64,000 bases of DNA from positions 785,001 to 849,000 of the forward strand of contig NZ_OY776414.1 of the NCBI RefSeq assembly GCF_963675585.1, given 5' to 3'. A model generated the notes under the pieces. That model had not been told where the DNA came from, did no database searches, and was given only the letters and a program-made list of their open reading frames with translations. Shown here one piece after another: positions 23,266 to 35,807 of this stretch. Position 1 is the stretch's first letter. Each line of letters begins with the position of its first letter. Made by a program: the position numbers and the translations under genes. The DNA is from an uncultured Draconibacterium sp. GTDB taxonomy: Bacteria > Bacteroidota > Bacteroidia > Bacteroidales > Prolixibacteraceae.

Positions 23266-25050
23266 ATGATTAAAAATACAATATCAAATCGTCTTTCAGC
23301 TTTGCGTGCCGAAATGCACAAATTAAATATTGATGCCTGGTACATTTCCGGAACCGATCCGCATTCGAGCGAGTATTTGCCGGCGAGGTGGCAAACCCGC
23401 ATGTTTATCTCCGGCTTTACCGGATCGTACGGAATGGTGGTAGTTACAAAAGACGAAGCTGCTTTGTGGACCGACTCACGTTATTTTTTGCAGGCTGCCG
23501 AACAATTGGAAGGTACAGGTATTCAAATGATGAAATTGCGCATTCCGGATGCTGTTTCGCCTGAAATGTGGCTAGGCAAAAAATTGAAAGCCGGAAGCCG
23601 CGTTGGAATGGATGCCCAAACCGTTTCGGTTGCCGGATTTAAAAGTTTTGAAAATACACTGGCAAAATATGAAATAGAAACCGTTGAAACGCCCGATCTG
23701 CTCGACAATATATGGTCTGACCGTCCTTTGGATTCGGCAGAAAAAGTGTTTGAACTGGGCCTTGAATATTCCGGAGTTTCACGAAAAGAAAAACAAGAAA
23801 ATATTGCTGCCGATCTTCAAAAGTCAGGAGCCGATTACCAGGTGGTTTCCATGCTCGACGAACTGGCATGGTTGTACAATCTGCGCGGAAACGACATAAG
23901 TTACAACCCGGTTTTTAATGGTTTTGCCTGTATTGGTAAAAACGATAGTTACCTGTTTGTCGAAAGTTCGAAAATTGAGGCAGGCTTAAAATCTATACTC
24001 GAAAAAGACGGCGTGACCTTATTGCCGTACGCTCAGTTTTATGATTTCCTATCCGGAGTCTCGGGAAAGAAAATTTTGGTTGATCCAGCTACTTTAAATT
24101 ATGCTGCTTACAGCGCGTTAATTCAAAACAACGAGTTGATTGAAAGCACTTCGTTGGTTTCGTTGCTGAAATCCAGAAAAAATGAAACTGAAATTGCCGG
24201 TTTTAAAGAAGCCATGAAAAAAGACGGGGTGGCTTTGGTTGAATTTCATTACTGGTTAAAAAATCACATTGGTAAAGAAACTATATCGGAATACAACATT
24301 GGTGTAAAACTGAAAGAATTCAGGGCAAAGCAGGCTGATTTTAAAGGAGAAAGTTTTCCTCCCATTGTGGGTTACAAAAGCCACGGCGCCATGGTTCATT
24401 TAATTGTTGGACCCGATGATGCTTTTCCGGTTGAAGCCGACGGAATTTTACTTTTCGATTCGGGAGGACAGTATTTGCAGGGAACCACCGATATTACGCG
24501 TACGGTTGCCCTGGGTGCTGTTTCGGAACAGCAAAGAACTGATTTTACCATTGTATTAAAAGGAATGATTGGCCTGACAAATGCCGTATTCCCTTTTGGA
24601 ACCAAAGGTTGTCATTTAGATATTCTGGCACGCAAACCAATGTGGGAAAACGGAATGAACTATGGACATGGAACCGGACACGGAGTTGGGCACTTTTTAA
24701 ATGTGCACGAAGGCCCGATGGCAATCAGACAGGAATACAACGAAAATAGAATTGAACCCGGAAATGTAATGTCGAACGAACCCGCCTTTTACCGCGAAGG
24801 TTTGTATGGAATTCGTACCGAAAATATGATTGTTTGTGTGGAAAAGGAAGTGACCGAATTTGGACGTTTCCTTGGTTTTGAAACACTTACTCTTTGTCCG
24901 ATAGATACCACTTTGATTCGTGTTGAATTGCTGACGACAGAGGAAAAAGACTGGATGAACAACTATCACAAAAAAGTAAATGAGGCATTAAAACCTTTGC
25001 TCTCAGATAATCTTCACCTGTTTCTTGATCAATTAACAGCAGAGATTTAG
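23266..25050 (+). CDS. Xaa-Pro aminopeptidase (M24B)
   Basis: Removes N-terminal residues linked to proline. The 594 aa consist of two creatinase N-terminal-like domains (to about 310) and a C-terminal pita-bread catalytic domain. Metal ligands are visible: first Asp in LFDSGGQYLQG, second Asp in TTDITRTV, His in GHGTGHGVGHFL, and Glu in MSNEPAFYREG and IRTENM. The length fits the large cytosolic aminopeptidase P type. No signal peptide. ATG at 23266. Confidence 0.93.
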   Translation: MIKNTISNRLSALRAEMHKLNIDAWYISGTDPHSSEYLPARWQTRMFISGFTGSYGMVVVTKDEAALWTDSRYFLQAAEQLEGTGIQMMKLRIPDAVSPEMWLGKKLKAGSRVGMDAQTVSVAGFKSFENTLAKYEIETVETPDLLDNIWSDRPLDSAEKVFELGLEYSGVSRKEKQENIAADLQKSGADYQVVSMLDELAWLYNLRGNDISYNPVFNGFACIGKNDSYLFVESSKIEAGLKSILEKDGVTLLPYAQFYDFLSGVSGKKILVDPATLNYAAYSALIQNNELIESTSLVSLLKSRKNETEIAGFKEAMKKDGVALVEFHYWLKNHIGKETISEYNIGVKLKEFRAKQADFKGESFPPIVGYKSHGAMVHLIVGPDDAFPVEADGILLFDSGGQYLQGTTDITRTVALGAVSEQQRTDFTIVLKGMIGLTNAVFPFGTKGCHLDILARKPMWENGMNYGHGTGHGVGHFLNVHEGPMAIRQEYNENRIEPGNVMSNEPAFYREGLYGIRTENMIVCVEKEVTEFGRFLGFETLTLCPIDTTLIRVELLTTEEKDWMNNYHKKVNEALKPLLSDNLHLFLDQLTAEI

Positions 25051-29408: not shown

Positions 29409-30746
29409 CTATAACTCACCGGAATTTGTATTTGGCTTTTTATAGTTCCACAGAATGGCTGCATTTAAAATGTAGCTTGAAATAATGATTGTATTTCCCG
29501 CAAGTTCAGAACCGGCAGTCTGGATTATTTTACCTGCTAAGGCAGTTGTACCGCCAATTAGAATTGCTGTAGCTACCCGTTTTTTATTCACCTTAATTTT
29601 TAAAAGGCCGGCCAGTGTTGGAACTACAAATGCTCCCGAGAAAAACGTTAAAGCAAGCAAAAGTGCCTGAATAATTGAAGTAACAAAAAGTGCAATTAAC
29701 AGACTTGCTGCTCCTGTAAATAAGATGAAATACCGGGTAAGTTTTAACGAATTGCTTTTATTCAGGTTGCCGGTTATCAGTTCGCTAACAATTATCGATG
29801 ATGTTAAAAGCGTTGTATCTGCCGATGACATAACAGCCGATAACAAGGCTGCAATAAAGAGTCCGTAGGCCCAGCCGGGTAAAAGATGTTCGGCAAATGC
29901 CACAATCCCTGCACCTGTTTCGTTGGCATAAATTCCAAGATAGGTTAGTACAAATGAGGTGGGTATAAGAATAAGCGCAACAAGTAAAATACTCCGCGAA
30001 GCTGTTTTTTCGTTTTTTGCACAAAATACCCGCGAATAAATATCGGGGCCAACCACAAAAGTTACCGAGTAGGTGAGTATTAAAATGAGCAAATCGATAA
30101 GCGAAAATTTGGTATTAAAAAGCAGCGAAAACTGAAATGTTTCGAAAGTATGTTCCATCGGATTCATTCTGGCGAACACAAATAAAAATACGAGGCCTCC
30201 AATAATCAGAACAGCTTGTAAAGTATCTGTTTTTAAGATACTGTGTTGACCACCCAATAAGGTGTACGAAATAAAAACAAGCCCCGAAACAATAGCCGCA
30301 TTCTGGTACGATATAAAACCTAGCCCATTGAGAATTTTAGCTGCAGCAATAATTTGCGCAGCCACAATTCCGATCCAGGCAATCGGAATAATTACCGATG
30401 AAATGGTTTCTGCTTTTTTCCCGTAAAAAGTACCTAAAAGTTCGGGCAAGGTGTAGTTTCCGTAACGTCGCACATATTTTGAGATTGGAATAAGTACAAA
30501 CAATCCGAGGGCAGCAGAAAATAGAAACCACAAACCCGGCCAGCCTAATTTTTGGCTGAGTTCGATTGTTCCTAAAATAGCTGAACCTCCTAAAATTGTG
30601 GCGAGCAAACTTCCTGAAACCGGAATTAATCCGGCCTTTTTACCGGCTACAAAATAGTCGTCAGGTGTTTTAATCCGAAAAGCAGAATAAACACCTATTC
30701 CGACAATAAAAACGAAGTATATTAAAATTGTAATTTCAGCTTGCAT
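29409..30746 (-). CDS. Sodium:solute symporter family transporter
   Basis: An inner-membrane transporter of 445 aa with about 13 hydrophobic segments. The N-terminal ILIYFVFIVGIGVYSAFRIK then DDYFVAGKKAGLIPVSGSLL is the sodium/solute symporter signature, and SSADTTLLTSSIIVSEL is the segment usually involved in sodium binding. The substrate cannot be read (proline, sugar or other). It is a single gene, divergent from the GNAT/ATP-grasp gene. Confidence 0.88.
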   Translation of the reverse strand: MQAEITILIYFVFIVGIGVYSAFRIKTPDDYFVAGKKAGLIPVSGSLLATILGGSAILGTIELSQKLGWPGLWFLFSAALGLFVLIPISKYVRRYGNYTLPELLGTFYGKKAETISSVIIPIAWIGIVAAQIIAAAKILNGLGFISYQNAAIVSGLVFISYTLLGGQHSILKTDTLQAVLIIGGLVFLFVFARMNPMEHTFETFQFSLLFNTKFSLIDLLILILTYSVTFVVGPDIYSRVFCAKNEKTASRSILLVALILIPTSFVLTYLGIYANETGAGIVAFAEHLLPGWAYGLFIAALLSAVMSSADTTLLTSSIIVSELITGNLNKSNSLKLTRYFILFTGAASLLIALFVTSIIQALLLALTFFSGAFVVPTLAGLLKIKVNKKRVATAILIGGTTALAGKIIQTAGSELAGNTIIISSYILNAAILWNYKKPNTNSGEL

Positions 30747-30786
30747 AATTAAGTCGACAAATATCGGAATTAATGTTTCAATATAG

Positions 30787-30794
30787 TATTTTTG
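30787..30794 (+). promoter_or_regulatory. Candidate -7 box of the GNAT/ATP-grasp-SET unit
   Basis: TATTTTTG matches TAnnTTTG exactly; a start near 30801 would give a 5' UTR of about 137 bases. No -33 box was seen, so confidence is limited. Confidence 0.35.
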
Positions 30795-30937
30795 TTCGTC
30801 AATAAAATAAAAAACGGCATCGTATAATTTTGTTTATTGATCCTGTAAACAAGTGCGCAGCAAGGAAGCTGTAAACTGATACAAGGGGAGTTTAGTGATA
30901 ATAATGTAACAATTGTGTTTGATTTATATCGCAATAA

Positions 30938-32896
30938 ATGGAATTAAATATTAGAAAGTCGCAATCTGGTGATTTTCATTTTCTCGAAAAGTTAGAAAAA
31001 GATTCTTTCCCAAACTTTCAACAAAGTTCACGAAAAAGTATTCAACGTAGCCTGACCAGTAAATTTCAGGAAGTATTAATAATTGAAACAAAAGGCAATA
31101 AACGGGTTTCGATAGGCGCAGTGGTTTTGTTTAAATACAAACAGGCCTTGCGCATTTACTCCATTGCTGTTTTGCCGGAATACCGTAACAAAGGACTCGG
31201 TACCATTGCAATGAACCATGTGAAAAATATGGCCCTCGCCAAACAATACAAAAAAGTATTGATTGAGGTTCATGTTAAAAACAAAAGTTTGATTGATTGG
31301 TACAAAACAAACGGATTTAAGGAAACCCATGTAATTAAGGACTATTACACAAACGGTGAGGATGCCTTAAAAATGGAATACATTTCTGAATTAGTGGACA
31401 TACCCAAAAAAACAAACAACATTATTGTTATCAATCAACCGCATAAATGGACTTTTAGCGATGCGAATGCCAAAGTTATTTCTGTAAAAGAATACATAAG
31501 TAATCCGGTTTATCATACCAGCAGCGACATGCGGGTTTTTAATTTGTGCAGCTCGTACAAATACCAGAGTTATGGTTATTATGTATCCTTGCTGGCCTCG
31601 GCGCGTGGTCACCGGGTAATTCCTAGCACCATTACCATCCGCGATTTTAAATTGCTGAATGTGATTCATTCGGCTTCATACGACCTGGAAGAGCTTATAA
31701 ATAAAGAGCTTGAAAAAGTTCCTGCTGATAAATTTAAGCTTAACATTTATTTTGGACAAACCGCAAAAAAGGGATTTAGTTTGCTGGCAAACCGGCTTTA
31801 TCAGTTGTTTGAAACTCCTCTGTTTGAAATTGAATTTATAAAGCAGGATAAATGGATTATTAAAGGAATTAAGGTTTTAACACTGAATAAACTGCCGGAA
31901 AGCGAAATCGAGTACATCAATGAATTTGCCCGGAAATATTTTAACAAACGACGGTTTAACAAAACCAAAATCATCAATTACAAGTACGACATTGCAATTC
32001 TGATCGATCCGGAGGAACAAACACCTCCATCGTGCAAGCGGGCGTTGCAAAAGTTTAAAAGTGCTGCCAACCGAAAAGGACTCTACGCCGAATTTATTAC
32101 AAAGGCCGATTTTGATAAACTGAATGAATTTGACGCGCTGTTTATTCGCGAAACCACAAGTGTAAATAATCATACCTACGAATTTTCGCGAATGGCTTAC
32201 GCCGAAGGCCTCGTGGTTATTGATGATCCGTGGTCGATACTAAGGTGCTCGAACAAGATTTTTCAGAATGAGATTTTTAGAAAACATAAAATACTAACGC
32301 CTCAAACGGTTGTATTTACCAAGAATATTTTTGAGAAAAAAGACCTGGATAATATGAATTATCCGCTGGTTTTAAAACAGCCCGACAGTGCCTTCTCGCT
32401 GGGGATTACGAAAGTAGAAAACAGGGAAGAAGCGTTAAATGCAATAACCGAATTGTTTAAAAAATCGGATATGATTGTTTGTCAGGAGTTTCTGTATTCC
32501 GAATTTGACTGGCGAATTGGCATTCTGGACAACAACCCTATTTTTGCCTGCAAATACTACATGTCGAAAGGGCACTGGCAAATTTACAACTGGGCGGGCG
32601 AAGCAGAAGAGAACTCCGGAGATTCTGAAACAGTAGATATTGAGGAGGTTCCGGAAGAAGTAATTCGAATAGCGCTTAAAGCTGCTGCCTTAATTGGTGA
32701 CGGATTGTACGGAGTGGATTTAAAATTGGTAAACGACAAGGTGTATGTGGTTGAAGTAAACGACAATCCAAACATCGACGTTGATATTGAAGATTATGTT
32801 TTGAAGGACAAACTTTACGACCGGATTATTGAATCGATTTATAACCGGATCGAAATTTCGAAAAACATTCAAAAAATAAATTTCAGAAATAATTAA
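30938..32896 (+). CDS. GNAT acetyltransferase fused to RimK-like ATP-grasp ligase
   Basis: A 652-aa fusion. Residues 1-150 are a GNAT domain (acetyl-CoA motif IAVLPEYRNKGLGTIAMNHV; later VHVKNKSLIDWYKTNGF). Residues about 155-330 look like the RimK-like N-terminal (RLAN-type) domain (FNLCSSYKYQSYGYYVSLLA). Residues about 430-640 are an ATP-grasp ligase with YPLVLKQPDSAFSLG (Lys of the ATP site), VCQEFLYSEFDWRIG and the metal-binding end VYVVEVNDNPNID. ATP-grasp enzymes of this type join amino acids or peptides by amide bonds, and fusion to GNAT suggests ligation plus N-acylation of a product. A SET methyltransferase follows after 48 bases. Product and substrate are unknown. Confidence 0.87.
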   Translation: MELNIRKSQSGDFHFLEKLEKDSFPNFQQSSRKSIQRSLTSKFQEVLIIETKGNKRVSIGAVVLFKYKQALRIYSIAVLPEYRNKGLGTIAMNHVKNMALAKQYKKVLIEVHVKNKSLIDWYKTNGFKETHVIKDYYTNGEDALKMEYISELVDIPKKTNNIIVINQPHKWTFSDANAKVISVKEYISNPVYHTSSDMRVFNLCSSYKYQSYGYYVSLLASARGHRVIPSTITIRDFKLLNVIHSASYDLEELINKELEKVPADKFKLNIYFGQTAKKGFSLLANRLYQLFETPLFEIEFIKQDKWIIKGIKVLTLNKLPESEIEYINEFARKYFNKRRFNKTKIINYKYDIAILIDPEEQTPPSCKRALQKFKSAANRKGLYAEFITKADFDKLNEFDALFIRETTSVNNHTYEFSRMAYAEGLVVIDDPWSILRCSNKIFQNEIFRKHKILTPQTVVFTKNIFEKKDLDNMNYPLVLKQPDSAFSLGITKVENREEALNAITELFKKSDMIVCQEFLYSEFDWRIGILDNNPIFACKYYMSKGHWQIYNWAGEAEENSGDSETVDIEEVPEEVIRIALKAAALIGDGLYGVDLKLVNDKVYVVEVNDNPNIDVDIEDYVLKDKLYDRIIESIYNRIEISKNIQKINFRNN

Positions 32897-32944
32897 TTGC
32901 CAAATTTTATAAGTCAATAACAAGAACAACAAAACGAGTTTAAA

Positions 32945-33559
32945 ATGATACATCCTAAAACTGAACTTCGGTTTATTAACGATATTGTGGGCTACGGAGT
33001 TGTGGCTACGGAGTTTATTCCGAAAGGAACCATAACGTGGGTTTTTGACAAACTCGACAGGGAGTTTTCTCCAGCCGAATTTGAATCGATGGAAGGTGTT
33101 TACAAAGACTTACTTTGTAGTTACACTTTTCGGAACAACAAAGGGAATTATGTTTTGTGCTGGGACCATGGTCGGTATGTAAATCATAGTTTTAAATCAA
33201 ATTGTTTGTCTACGGCATATGACTTTGAAATTGCCATAAAAGACATTTTGTCGGGAGAACAGTTAACCGATGATTACGGTTACCTGAACATCATTGAACC
33301 TTTTAGAGCCTTTGATGAAGGTACCAAAAGAAAAACCGTTTATCCCGACGATTTGGTTCGCTATTCAAAAGTGTGGGATAAAAAAATTACCGGAGTTTTT
33401 GGTAAAATTCCAAACCTGAATCAACCCTTAAAAGAACTGATCTCAGAAAATACCTGGAATGAAATACTTATGGTTTGCGAACAAAAGAAAGAAATTGAGT
33501 CTATATTTAAGAATTATTACAACGACAAGGAAAATTTGCGTAATTACCAGCTGGCATAA
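32945..33559 (+). CDS. SET-domain methyltransferase
   Basis: A 204-aa protein. The SET fold is visible in order: GYGVVATEFIPKGTITWVFD (residues 16-35), then GRYVNHSFKSNC (NHS at 80-82, pseudoknot motif) and IKDILSGEQLTDDYG (DDYG at 109-112, matching the ELTYDYG-type motif). It has no pre- or post-SET zinc domain. The family methylates lysines with SAM. The C-terminal third is helical and charged. It lies 48 bases after the GNAT/ATP-grasp gene and is probably co-transcribed. The substrate is unknown; a peptide or product of the upstream ligase is possible (inference). Confidence 0.87.
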   Translation: MIHPKTELRFINDIVGYGVVATEFIPKGTITWVFDKLDREFSPAEFESMEGVYKDLLCSYTFRNNKGNYVLCWDHGRYVNHSFKSNCLSTAYDFEIAIKDILSGEQLTDDYGYLNIIEPFRAFDEGTKRKTVYPDDLVRYSKVWDKKITGVFGKIPNLNQPLKELISENTWNEILMVCEQKKEIESIFKNYYNDKENLRNYQLA

Positions 33560-33695
33560 CATTTACGGAATTGAAGATCGACTGAACTTTCTCATCGTTA
33601 ATTGGTTATAGTATTCAAAATTGCCAAAAACCAATTGAACCCGGAATCGAATCAATGTTCGCAAAATACATATATGCATCTTTCAAATTAATTCT

Positions 33696-35807
33696 ATGAA
33701 TATGAATAAGTTACTATTTCTAAGCATCTTTTTAGTTCTGTTTATTGCCGCCTGTACAACAAACGAAAAAATTGTACCACCGGTAGCAAAAAAAATATCT
33801 AAAGAACTTACCACACATGGTGATACCCGAATTGACAATTATTACTGGATGAACGAACGTGAAAATCCGGAAGTGATTGCACATTTAGAAGCTGAAAATG
33901 CCTATAAGGATGCGGTTATGAAACACACCGAACCTTTACAAACAAAGCTTTACGACGAGATTAAATCAAAAATCAAACAGGAAGATGAGTCGGTACCCTA
34001 TAAAAAAAACGGGTATTATTATTACTACAAACAACTTCCCGGTAAAGAATACGATGTAAACTGCAGAAAAAAGGGTAGTCTGGAAGCCGAGGAAGAAGTA
34101 CTCATTGATGAGAACGAATTGGCTGAAGGACATGATTATTTTGCACTTGGCGGCTTGTCAGTTAGCCCCGACAATAAACTTGTAGCTTATGGTGTTGATG
34201 TGGTGAGCCGCCGCAAGTACACCATCTATTTTAAAAACCTCGAAACCGGAGAAGTACTTGCCGATACAATTCCGTTAACCACGGGAAGAGCAACCTGGGC
34301 AAACGACAATAAAACGGTGTATTATGTGCTAAAAGACGATGTTACACTGCGTTCCGAAAAAATTATGAAACACACGCTGGGAACCTCGTCCGATAATGAT
34401 GAGGAAGTCTTTTTCGAAGAAGATGAAACCTTCTCTACCTTTATATTCAAAACCAAATCGGAAAAATACCTGATTATTGGAAGCGAAAGTACACTGACTT
34501 CCGAGTACCGGTTTTTAGATGCCGATAATCCGGTCGGAACATTTCAAGTAATCCAGCCACGCACACGCGGATTGGAATATTCTGTTGATCATTTTGGAAA
34601 CGATTTTTACATTCGTACCAACCTCGACGCGCAGAATTTCAGGTTAATGAAAACCCCCGTAAGCAAAACCGAAAAGGAGAACTGGACCGAAGTTATTGCT
34701 CATCGCAAGGACGTATATTTAGGCGGATTCAGTTTATTGAAGGATTATTTGGTGGTTTCTGAACGAAAGGAAGGAATAAATGGTTTGCGTGTCATGCCTT
34801 GGAATGGCGAAGCTTATTCCATTGAATTTGATGAAGAGGTGTACACCGTTTATCCTGATGTGAATCTGGAATTTGATACCGATATTTTCCGTTTTAGTTA
34901 CACCTCGATGACAACACCTAACTCGATTTTTGATTTCAACCTGAAAACAAAGGAACGAACACTTTTAAAGCAAATGGAAGTGTTGCGTGGATTTAATAAA
35001 GATGATTACGAAACCAAACGTATTTATGCAACAGCCGGCGATGGAACTAAAATTCCGATGACGATTGTATACAAAAAGGGCATGATGAAAAATGGTGATA
35101 ATCCCACATTACTTTATGGGTATGGGTCGTATGGAGCAACTATGGATCCAAGATTCCGTTTGTCAATACTTCCTTTGTTAGACCGAGGTTTTGTGTATGC
35201 CATAGCGCACATTAGGGGTAGCCAGATTAACGGCCGTGCCTGGTACGAAGACGGTAAATTATTGAACAAAATGAACACTTTTACCGATTTTAACGACTGC
35301 GCACAGTTTTTGATTGATGATGAATACACCAACTCTGAAAAACTTTTTGCCATGGGTGGAAGTGCAGGTGGTTTGTTAATGGGCGCTTGTATAAATCTTC
35401 GTCCCGAATTGTACAAAGGTGTTATTGCTGCTGTTCCATTTGTTGATGTGATAACTACCATGCTCGACGAAAGTATTCCTTTAACAACAGGTGAGTTCGA
35501 TGAATGGGGCAATCCTAAAATTGAAAAGTATTATTACTATATGAAAGCGTATTCGCCTTATGACAACGTGGTTGCAAAAGATTATCCGGCTTTGCTGGTT
35601 ACTACAGGTTTGCACGATTCGCAGGTACAGTACTGGGAACCAGCCAAGTGGGTGGCCAAACTTCGGGAGCTTAAAACCGACGATAATCTGCTGATTTTCC
35701 ACATAAATATGGATTACGGACACGGAGGTGCCTCCGGACGTTTTGAGTGGATAAAAGAAACCGCATTGGAGTACGCATTTATATTTGATCAATTGAAAAT
35801 GGAATAA
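33696..35807 (+). CDS. Oligopeptidase B-like S9A peptidase (lipoprotein)
   Basis: A 703-aa prolyl-oligopeptidase-family serine peptidase. A lipoprotein signal ends LFIAAC. The beta-propeller is followed by the hydrolase domain with nucleophile motif GGSAGG, the preceding GSYGATMDPRF and AHIRGSQINGRAWYEDGK, Asp in GLHDSQVQYWEP and His in DYGHGGASG. The match with oligopeptidase B (VPFVDVITTMLDESIPLT) is strong; these cleave after basic residues. The family is usually cytosolic, so the lipoprotein signal places this one in the envelope. ATG at 33702 is an alternative start. A terminator follows. Confidence 0.92.
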   Translation: MNMNKLLFLSIFLVLFIAACTTNEKIVPPVAKKISKELTTHGDTRIDNYYWMNERENPEVIAHLEAENAYKDAVMKHTEPLQTKLYDEIKSKIKQEDESVPYKKNGYYYYYKQLPGKEYDVNCRKKGSLEAEEEVLIDENELAEGHDYFALGGLSVSPDNKLVAYGVDVVSRRKYTIYFKNLETGEVLADTIPLTTGRATWANDNKTVYYVLKDDVTLRSEKIMKHTLGTSSDNDEEVFFEEDETFSTFIFKTKSEKYLIIGSESTLTSEYRFLDADNPVGTFQVIQPRTRGLEYSVDHFGNDFYIRTNLDAQNFRLMKTPVSKTEKENWTEVIAHRKDVYLGGFSLLKDYLVVSERKEGINGLRVMPWNGEAYSIEFDEEVYTVYPDVNLEFDTDIFRFSYTSMTTPNSIFDFNLKTKERTLLKQMEVLRGFNKDDYETKRIYATAGDGTKIPMTIVYKKGMMKNGDNPTLLYGYGSYGATMDPRFRLSILPLLDRGFVYAIAHIRGSQINGRAWYEDGKLLNKMNTFTDFNDCAQFLIDDEYTNSEKLFAMGGSAGGLLMGACINLRPELYKGVIAAVPFVDVITTMLDESIPLTTGEFDEWGNPKIEKYYYYMKAYSPYDNVVAKDYPALLVTTGLHDSQVQYWEPAKWVAKLRELKTDDNLLIFHINMDYGHGGASGRFEWIKETALEYAFIFDQLKME

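Follow-up and report, generated by a model that had tools for sequence, protein, structure and literature searches.

A gene for a three-domain ligase stands directly before a gene for a SET-domain protein in an uncultured Draconibacterium sp., which raises two questions: What does the ligase make, and does its neighbour take part? The window (the whole stretch of DNA that was analysed, 64,000 nucleotides of contig NZ_OY776414.1) had been read as holding a two-gene modifying system, in which a ligation product is acylated and a substrate methylated. I give about an even chance to a different reading, in which the two genes are functionally separate and were brought together by a local rearrangement, and in which the first encodes a GNAT-carrying RLAN ligase that makes an N-acetylated small peptide.

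The fusion protein and its SET neighbour

The first gene (30938-32896, forward strand, ATG start) encodes a 652-aa protein with three regions, all read from the forward strand: a GNAT domain (Pfam Acetyltransf_1, residues 16-127, 30983..31318; 47.8 bits against a cut-off of 20.7), an RLAN domain (PF14401, residues 184-326, 31487..31915; 150.3 bits against 25, E 4e-44), and a pre-ATP-grasp and RimK-like ATP-grasp region assigned with Pfam and curated models (residues 368-615, 32039..32782), in which RimK PF08443 covers residues 438-615 (37.7 bits against 21). After a gap of 48 nt on the same strand follows the second gene (32945-33559, ATG start), whose 204-aa product has a SET domain (PF00856, residues 16-112; 43.3 bits against 22.4) and a C-terminal extension past it. 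These are the sole RLAN and the sole SET gene in the genome. Two flanking genes served as syntenic markers, a sodium/solute symporter (SSF) upstream of the fusion (29409..30746, reverse strand) and an S9 oligopeptidase-B-like protein (33696..35807, forward strand).

The ATP-grasp residues K480, R526, D594, E606 and N608 are invariant in all 76 aligned RLAN-family rows (78 minus the aberrant L230 and L182). So are E20, R72, E110, Y122 and Y136 in 43 of 43 aligned partner GNATs, with E110 and Y122 spaced, presumably, as the catalytic Glu and Tyr of RimI. The NHS and DDYG motifs of the SET protein are intact, and their seven residues (N80, H81, S82, D109, D110, Y111 and G112) are invariant in 35/35 aligned sequences, namely the window's own and 34 chosen from 80 relatives. 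The original prediction thus described the open reading frames, domains and motifs correctly. Predicted structures of the fusion and the SET protein were too poor to use, with mean pLDDT of 38 (2-row alignment) and 57 (35 rows).

The original prediction had also placed a promoter-like box before the gene pair. If, as I assume, TANNTTTG was meant, it does occur upstream of the fusion, at 30787 and 30825, but the window as a whole holds 57 copies where chance would give 82. The two-box pattern TTTG-N17..22-TANNTTTG does not occur at those upstream sites, and sigma-70-like sites in 30700-33720 number 14 against 10.1 expected (sd 2.7). A box no better than chance was rejected on these grounds.

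Acetyltransferase-coupled RLAN ligases

Its domains place the fusion among the RimK-like carboxylate-amine ligases of the RLAN family. These are reportedly the predicted RLAN/RimK-like ATP-grasp amidoligases (PF14401) of Iyer et al. in 2009, and they are widely distributed, predicted and, to my knowledge, biochemically uncharacterised peptide ligases. The fusion resembles them in having RLAN and ATP-grasp domains over cut-off, invariant catalytic residues and GNAT as a recurrent partner. It differs from the unfused members, which neighbour GCS2, FGase and C39-like genes, in that these are missing and a GNAT domain forms its N-terminus. Among the literature matches listed, by title and start of abstract, I recognised neither a GNAT–RLAN fusion nor a bacterial SET protein with an ATP-grasp.

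The fused GNAT–RLAN form accounts for 22 of 33 loci in a hand-picked family and order set and for 11 of 40 in a phylum set. A tree of 78 RLAN rows places the 33 fused ones in two groups, of 31 and 2, and nine with a separate, adjacent GNAT in a third clade. The fused rows L268 and L269 sit on long branches, and a second origin of the fusion is not secure. In Azospirillum, a GNAT-DUF3335 (C39-like) fusion precedes RLAN.

Unfused RLAN loci of the phylum set carry GCS2 (29/29), a C39-like peptidase (24/29; the DUF3335 profile PF11814 matches none of the cassette peptidases and misses C39 genes in seven genomes) and N-formylglutamate amidohydrolase, FGase (20/29), versus 0 of 11 fused loci for each. 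All three are likewise absent from the 22 fused and the 9 separate-GNAT loci of the family and order set. Across the Bacteroidota loci that were compared, RLAN ligases fall into distinct set-ups without mixing, one with GCS2, often accompanied by the hydrolases, and one with an acetyltransferase fused or adjacent. The window fits the latter, since no adjacent GCS2, FGase or C39-like gene was found in its positions 22001-44000, nor GCS2 anywhere in the genome. Of 27 genomes with the fused form, 12 have some GCS2 match elsewhere, strong in four (G238, G263, G234 and G557). No third gene common to the fused loci of the family and order set was found beyond near relatives.

The best reading, by analogy, is that the fusion is a bifunctional N-acetyl-peptide synthetase, Ngg-like in its working yet not Ngg. 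Its ATP-grasp domain would activate a carboxylate with ATP and couple it to an amino acid through the latter's amine; glutamate, the amino acid used by most named RimK-family enzymes, is a candidate. The RLAN domain may aid acceptor binding, the GNAT domain would add an acetyl group to the alpha-amine, either of the substrate or of the finished product, and what emerges would be a small N-acetylated peptide that serves as an osmolyte or metabolite. I infer the whole of this chemistry. The union of ligation and acylation that had been proposed survives as the best reading, given the recurrence of GNAT–RLAN coupling (two fused groups, adjacent in a third); the addition of SET does not.

Instead of synthesizing a metabolite, the same domains might act on a protein terminus, acetylating and glutamylating it in the manner of RimI and RimK. 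Among curated models, the ligase part matches rimK_fam best and the GNAT part rimI, and the solved sequences nearest the GNAT domain are N-terminal acetyltransferases. However, both scores fall under cut-off (TIGR00768, 67.9 bits against 143.4; TIGR01575, 57.3 against 86.4). RimK (the S6 glutamate ligase), LysX and MptN are the top-scoring curated ligase models, and the fusion differs from them in scoring below cut-off with all 25 curated models listed and in its extra GNAT and RLAN domains. The unfused forms, moreover, adjoin GCS2 and a gene of the N-formylglutamate amidohydrolase family, both named for small-molecule enzymes, and the lack of a shared third gene at fused loci beyond near relatives also argues against protein modification, which I consider rather unlikely.

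That the fusion is Ngg itself, the N-acetylglutaminylglutamine (NAGGN) synthetase, is very improbable. Both proteins combine a GNAT domain with an ATP-grasp, which forms the ligase part of Ngg, but Ngg is not known to contain an RLAN domain. PMC8070244 describes Ngg as carrying out both the N-acetylation of glutamine and the formation of the peptide bond; a single polypeptide that acetylates and ligates, as proposed here for the fusion, would be common to the two. The Ngg profile TIGR03103 (cut-off 569 bits), however, matches the genome weakly at four places at E 0.001, none of them the fusion gene. NAGGN synthetase was rejected on this ground, and the proviso of the original prediction, that the fusion might already be assigned to this product, does not apply. 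Four window genes scanned by profile included no asparagine synthase, and the S9 peptidase lies two genes downstream of the fusion. A phage or defence system was also rejected: PADLOC gave 0 matches, PHROGs matched the fusion to acetyltransferases and an S6-modification family and the SET protein to nothing, and a phage collection held one partial SET match (51% of the query, E 1e-12).

The SET gene with and without the fusion

SET was found at 3 of 144 RLAN-bearing loci from 89 genomes (flanks of at least about 1.5 kb where contigs allow), and these three represent two genomes, the window's and that of Draconibacterium aestuarii (G232). Conversely, RLAN was found at 2 of 98 SET-bearing loci (the window's own excluded), both in D. 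aestuarii, where an MgtC gene lies between fusion and SET and overlaps the latter by 4 nt. The nine closest relatives (L101-L109; 81–83% identity) keep the order SSF–fusion–S9 peptidase, with the peptidase directly 3' of the fusion and no SET alongside, and none was found in their genomes. In two further genomes, G250 and G248, SET lies near the orthologous SSF (70-72% identity), and in G250 also near the orthologous S9 peptidase (79%), while their fusion genes are on other contigs; SET thus occupies the window's chromosomal region there without the fusion.

A neighbourhood search across relatives had been proposed as a check on the pairing, and side-by-side conservation is not what it found: the genes adjoin in 2 of the 89 genomes, one of them with an intervening gene. 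I therefore rejected a paired system as the main reading, on the 3/144 loci, the SET-less relatives and the synteny of G250 and G248. Gene order suggests that the adjacency is a local accident and that the SET protein, which in other bacteria usually occurs without the fusion, lies outside its system; I infer that a local rearrangement made them neighbours. Against independence, SET has stayed by the fusion in both the window's species and D. aestuarii, whose fusion proteins are 78% identical, which means that the linkage is of some age.

A true two-gene system, in which the fusion produces a peptide bearing an acyl group and a lysine, either of that peptide or of the fusion enzyme itself, is methylated by SET, has a slim chance. 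The 48-nt spacing on one strand, the shared locus in D. aestuarii and a weak co-occurrence of SET and RLAN genes (below) are in keeping with it. So are other SET homologues that adjoin ATP-grasp ligases, notably a PGM1-related one in Streptomyces (4 nt away in Streptomyces sp. SAT1), besides a GARS-like ligase in Sphingomonas daechungensis (convergent and overlapping) and an ATP-grasp protein read as cyanophycin synthetase at locus L023. Yet the nine closest relatives have the fusion and no SET, G250 and G248 have SET at this chromosomal region and the fusion elsewhere, the MgtC gene intervenes in D. aestuarii, and the other four genomes of the phylum sample with clear SET and RLAN (G560, G652, G505 and G703) carry the two on separate contigs or at a distance of 328 kb. 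TTL has the ATP-grasp fold. TTLL12, according to PMC3520985, is a SET-like and TTL-like protein and so also combines SET-like and ligase domains; it differs from the window's pair in being eukaryotic and a single polypeptide.

By family, the SET protein would be a methyltransferase, presumably of protein lysine. Like bacterial SET proteins such as those reviewed in PMC3980110, it has a SET domain whose NHS and DDYG motifs are invariant, and it differs from them in belonging to a compact family of Bacteroidota and a few Planctomycetota (63-77% identity among the best 80 of 263 loci), for which no solved relative was found by sequence at E 0.1. A recent horizontal gain by the window's lineage was considered. 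Outside D. aestuarii the closest SET proteins are in Flavobacteriales (up to 73% among the best 80 of 263 loci), and those of other genus members are 51-57% identical. However, an AU test, with six long or partial rows dropped beforehand, does not reject one clade for the SET genes of the genus (p 0.47), and SET has conserved synteny in G250 and G248. One clade is thus compatible with vertical descent at the locus.

Co-occurrence across genomes and its meaning

Within the family, all eight genomes with a clear SET carry an RLAN gene, versus 50 of 140 overall (naive p 1.8e-4); with the weak SET match of G280 included the count is 8 of 9 (p 0.001), and p is about 0.03 when counted as three lineages outside the window's own. 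Size control leaves 6 of 6 SET genomes of at least 5.0 Mb with RLAN (p 0.015; 127 of the 140 family genomes listed). Where both are present in the family, the genes are mostly unlinked. In the phylum sample, RLAN occurs in 5 of 18 clear-SET genomes compared with 43 of the 395 genomes sampled (p 0.035; 0.095 if the window's genome is left out), and with SET taken at E 0.001 in 9 of 42 (p 0.031, or 0.062 without it). The co-occurrence speaks against independence, weakly once kinship is allowed for, and what remains of it allows, with low probability, for a link in trans. RLAN ligases might, for instance, make small N-capped peptides while several lineages use SET in trans to act on the ligase or on what it makes, which I regard as improbable. 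If true, the window and D. aestuarii would be cases in which in-trans SET and ligase genes became linked, and bacteria would have a route where a SET enzyme methylates a ligase-built peptide.

On the preferred reading, that of separate genes and an acetylating RLAN ligase, a probable false lead, the SET pairing, is removed and a testable one, the GNAT-coupled RLAN ligase, is gained in exchange. A comparison of the products of the GCS2-type and acetyltransferase-type set-ups would then point to what the RLAN family makes.

The fusion, its SET neighbour and their co-occurrence

The window carries on its forward strand a 652-aa ORF (30938-32896), the fusion, followed after 48 nt by a 204-aa ORF (32945-33559). 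Pfam places a GNAT domain (residues 16-127), RLAN (PF14401, residues 184-326, scoring 150 bits where the cut-off is 25) and a RimK-like ATP-grasp domain (residues 438-615) in the former and a SET domain (residues 16-112) in the latter; RLAN and SET are each single-copy in this genome. The ORFs, spacing and domains of the original prediction are thereby borne out, coordinates included. The promoter-like signal that it saw upstream of the pair is no more frequent than chance, and its proposal of a peptide- or metabolite-modifying pair drew a partly wrong conclusion from what was correctly observed.

Comparison of gene neighbourhoods shows that the pair is not conserved side by side in relatives. 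A scan of genome contigs found 263 SET stretches, and among the best 80 (63-77% identity) the fusion lies close to SET only in L003, from Draconibacterium aestuarii (G232, whose SET is at zero tree distance from that of L003, is counted as this species). Profile scans placed SET at 3/144 RLAN-bearing loci, equal to two genomes (89 genomes were covered, some genes being represented twice), and RLAN at 2/98 SET-bearing loci, both D. aestuarii. The top recurring families in the two nearest genes on each side of SET occur at 11 of those best 80 of 263 loci, mostly in Arenibacter. Most likely, then, SET stands beside the fusion as an independent gene.

Do the two genes nonetheless share genomes? 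In the family sample, where a clear SET has E below 1e-69 and RLAN is a match across the RLAN and ATP-grasp parts, 8/8 clear-SET genomes carry RLAN, versus 50/140 overall (naive p 1.8e-4; 5.0e-4 minus the window's genome), or 8/9 (p 0.001) counting a weak ninth SET match in G280, which has no RLAN match. For the three lineages of this sample outside the window's own, p is about 0.03, and within the genus RLAN occurs in 6/6 SET genomes versus 25/37 (p 0.076). Across the 395 phylum-sample genomes RLAN accompanies SET in 5/18 at E below 1e-40 (p 0.035; 0.095 minus the window's genome) and 9/42 at E 0.001 (p 0.031; 0.062), and in the order sample in 1/3 other clear-SET genomes (p 0.16) or 1/5 at E 0.001 (p 0.25). 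This co-occurrence could be a product of genome size and kinship, with a small chance of a link in trans. In the four further phylum-sample genomes that have a clear SET as well as RLAN, the genes are unlinked, 328 kb apart in G560 and on different contigs in G652, G505 and G703.

Proposed history of the adjacency

In the window the fusion lies between an SSF symporter (29409-30746, reverse strand) and, beyond SET, an S9 peptidase (33696-35807, forward strand). The nine closest relatives (G238, G263, G262, G257, G266, G261, G236, G240 and G234), with fusions 81-83% identical, all have the order SSF – fusion – S9 without SET (9/9, L101-L109), and a genome-wide search found no SET match in any of them; in the three of them retrieved with more flanking sequence (L138-L140) the gap between fusion and S9 measures 126-127 nt. 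The SET gene of G250 has as its neighbours orthologues of SSF (72%), S9 (79%) and the window gene at 23266-25050, which reads as an aminopeptidase; that of G248 is near those of the response regulators, the histidine kinase and SSF (70%), with an intervening gene in both that reads from its sequence as ABC-F-like. The fusion sits on another contig in both genomes, so SET is bound to this part of the chromosome whether or not the fusion is there. On the simplest account, the fusion would have moved beside SET in the ancestor of the window's group, and the nine relatives would have lost SET afterwards.

The two genes of D. aestuarii are separated by an MgtC gene that overlaps SET by 4 nt, and no S9 gene follows the pair within the fetched stretch. 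The window's SET pairs with that of D. aestuarii on the tree (SH-aLRT 96), and monophyly of all genus SETs was not rejected (p 0.47) once six long or partial rows had been dropped.

An MgtC-family gene lies directly 3' of the RLAN ligase in D. aestuarii (L141:8463-8936, 33 nt gap) and in the distant Aeromonas caviae (L182:5471-6007, 18 nt); G232 holds the only case among 144 scanned RLAN loci. SETs of the Bacteroidota family also occur in Gimesia and another Planctomycetaceae MAG (L011, L017, L027; 67-68% identity), nested among Bacteroidota on the tree, through either transfer or binning of foreign contigs. Three genomes of one taxonomic family (f131) carry SET genes of this kind as tandem pairs (G345:C43:59652-60832; G350:C21:610322-611502; G335:C3:199719-200884).

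SET homologues also neighbour other ATP-grasp ligases, which, like the sharing of genomes, counts against the independence of SET. That of Streptomyces sp. SAT1 adjoins a PGM1-related ATP-grasp peptide ligase, starting 4 nt past it (L183:3662-5564). Biosynthetic genes, among them one for a lysine 2,3-aminomutase, lie nearby, and this SET protein is possibly an enzyme of a peptide natural-product cluster. In Sphingomonas daechungensis a SET homologue and a GARS-like ATP-grasp ligase are convergent and overlapping, and at L023 the adjacent ATP-grasp ligase reads as cyanophycin synthetase.

Fused and unfused RLAN loci

RLAN exceeded the cut-off in 43/395 phylum-sample genomes (44 at E 0.001), and 40 of the 44 loci were fetched, the window itself, G489, G691 and G701 being left out. 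The GNAT fusion is present at 11 of these 40; the other 29 are unfused and have no GNAT profile match nearby. Whereas GCS2 lies within the fetched stretch at 29/29 unfused loci, a C39-like peptidase at 24/29 and N-formylglutamate amidohydrolase (FGase) at 20/29, each is found at 0/11 fused loci (L235 and L239 were shortened by contig end or chosen borders). A tight run recurring in Bacteroidota, C39-like peptidase – RLAN/ATP-grasp – GCS2 – FGase (L236:3294-7392; L261:3187-7313), was confirmed by Pfam in both these loci (in L236 successive genes overlap or are separated by 3-4 bases) and is a candidate pathway of small-peptide synthesis and turnover.

In a hand-picked order/family set (L165, a fragment, excluded), 22/33 RLAN loci are fused and 9/33 adjoin a separate GNAT gene; GCS2, C39 and FGase are found at none of these 31, while L159 has all three and L158 FGase alone. 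Among Proteobacteria, a GNAT–DUF3335 fusion immediately precedes RLAN in Azospirillum, and the arrangement in Legionella adelaidensis is RLAN–GCS2–FGase. The window's genome has no GCS2 match, and 12/27 fused genomes searched have one elsewhere, four of them strong. PF11814 matched 0/41 genomes, missing seven with a C39-like gene in the cassette, so this result carries no information on C39.

On an RLAN/ATP-grasp tree of 78 rows, 31/33 fused rows form one clade (SH-aLRT 100) and the nine separate-GNAT rows their own. The other two fused rows (L268, L269), on long branches outside the main fused clade, are possibly an independent fusion; these GNAT–RLAN–ATP-grasp proteins come from another family (f148). 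The GNAT domain of a 718-aa fusion (L263) contains an inserted low-complexity repeat with many Q, P, E, D and T residues.

Residues and proposed chemistry

The core ATP-grasp residues K480, R526, D594, E606 and N608, whose roles are those known for the fold, are invariant in 76/76 rows (L230 and L182 dropped). GNAT residues E110 and Y122 are invariant in 43/43 and lie 12 residues apart, as do the catalytic Glu and Tyr of RimI. The solved sequences closest to the GNAT part are N-terminal acetyltransferases; for the ATP-grasp part the top match is to a phosphoribosylglycinamide-synthetase entry (E 1e-7), ahead of D-Ala ligases, and RimK entries match less well (E 6e-4 and above).

Ngg, the N-acetylglutaminylglutamine synthetase, was considered as an identity for the fusion and rejected, its profile TIGR03103 being without a match at the fusion gene. 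By analogy, the likeness would lie in pairing acetylation with peptide-bond formation: according to PMC8070244, Ngg acetylates glutamine and also forms the peptide bond, and it is a real precedent for a single-chain acetyl-peptide synthetase. Within a ligase family already predicted, the fusion is a variant that bears an acetyltransferase, and I propose that it may be an N-acetyl-peptide synthetase.
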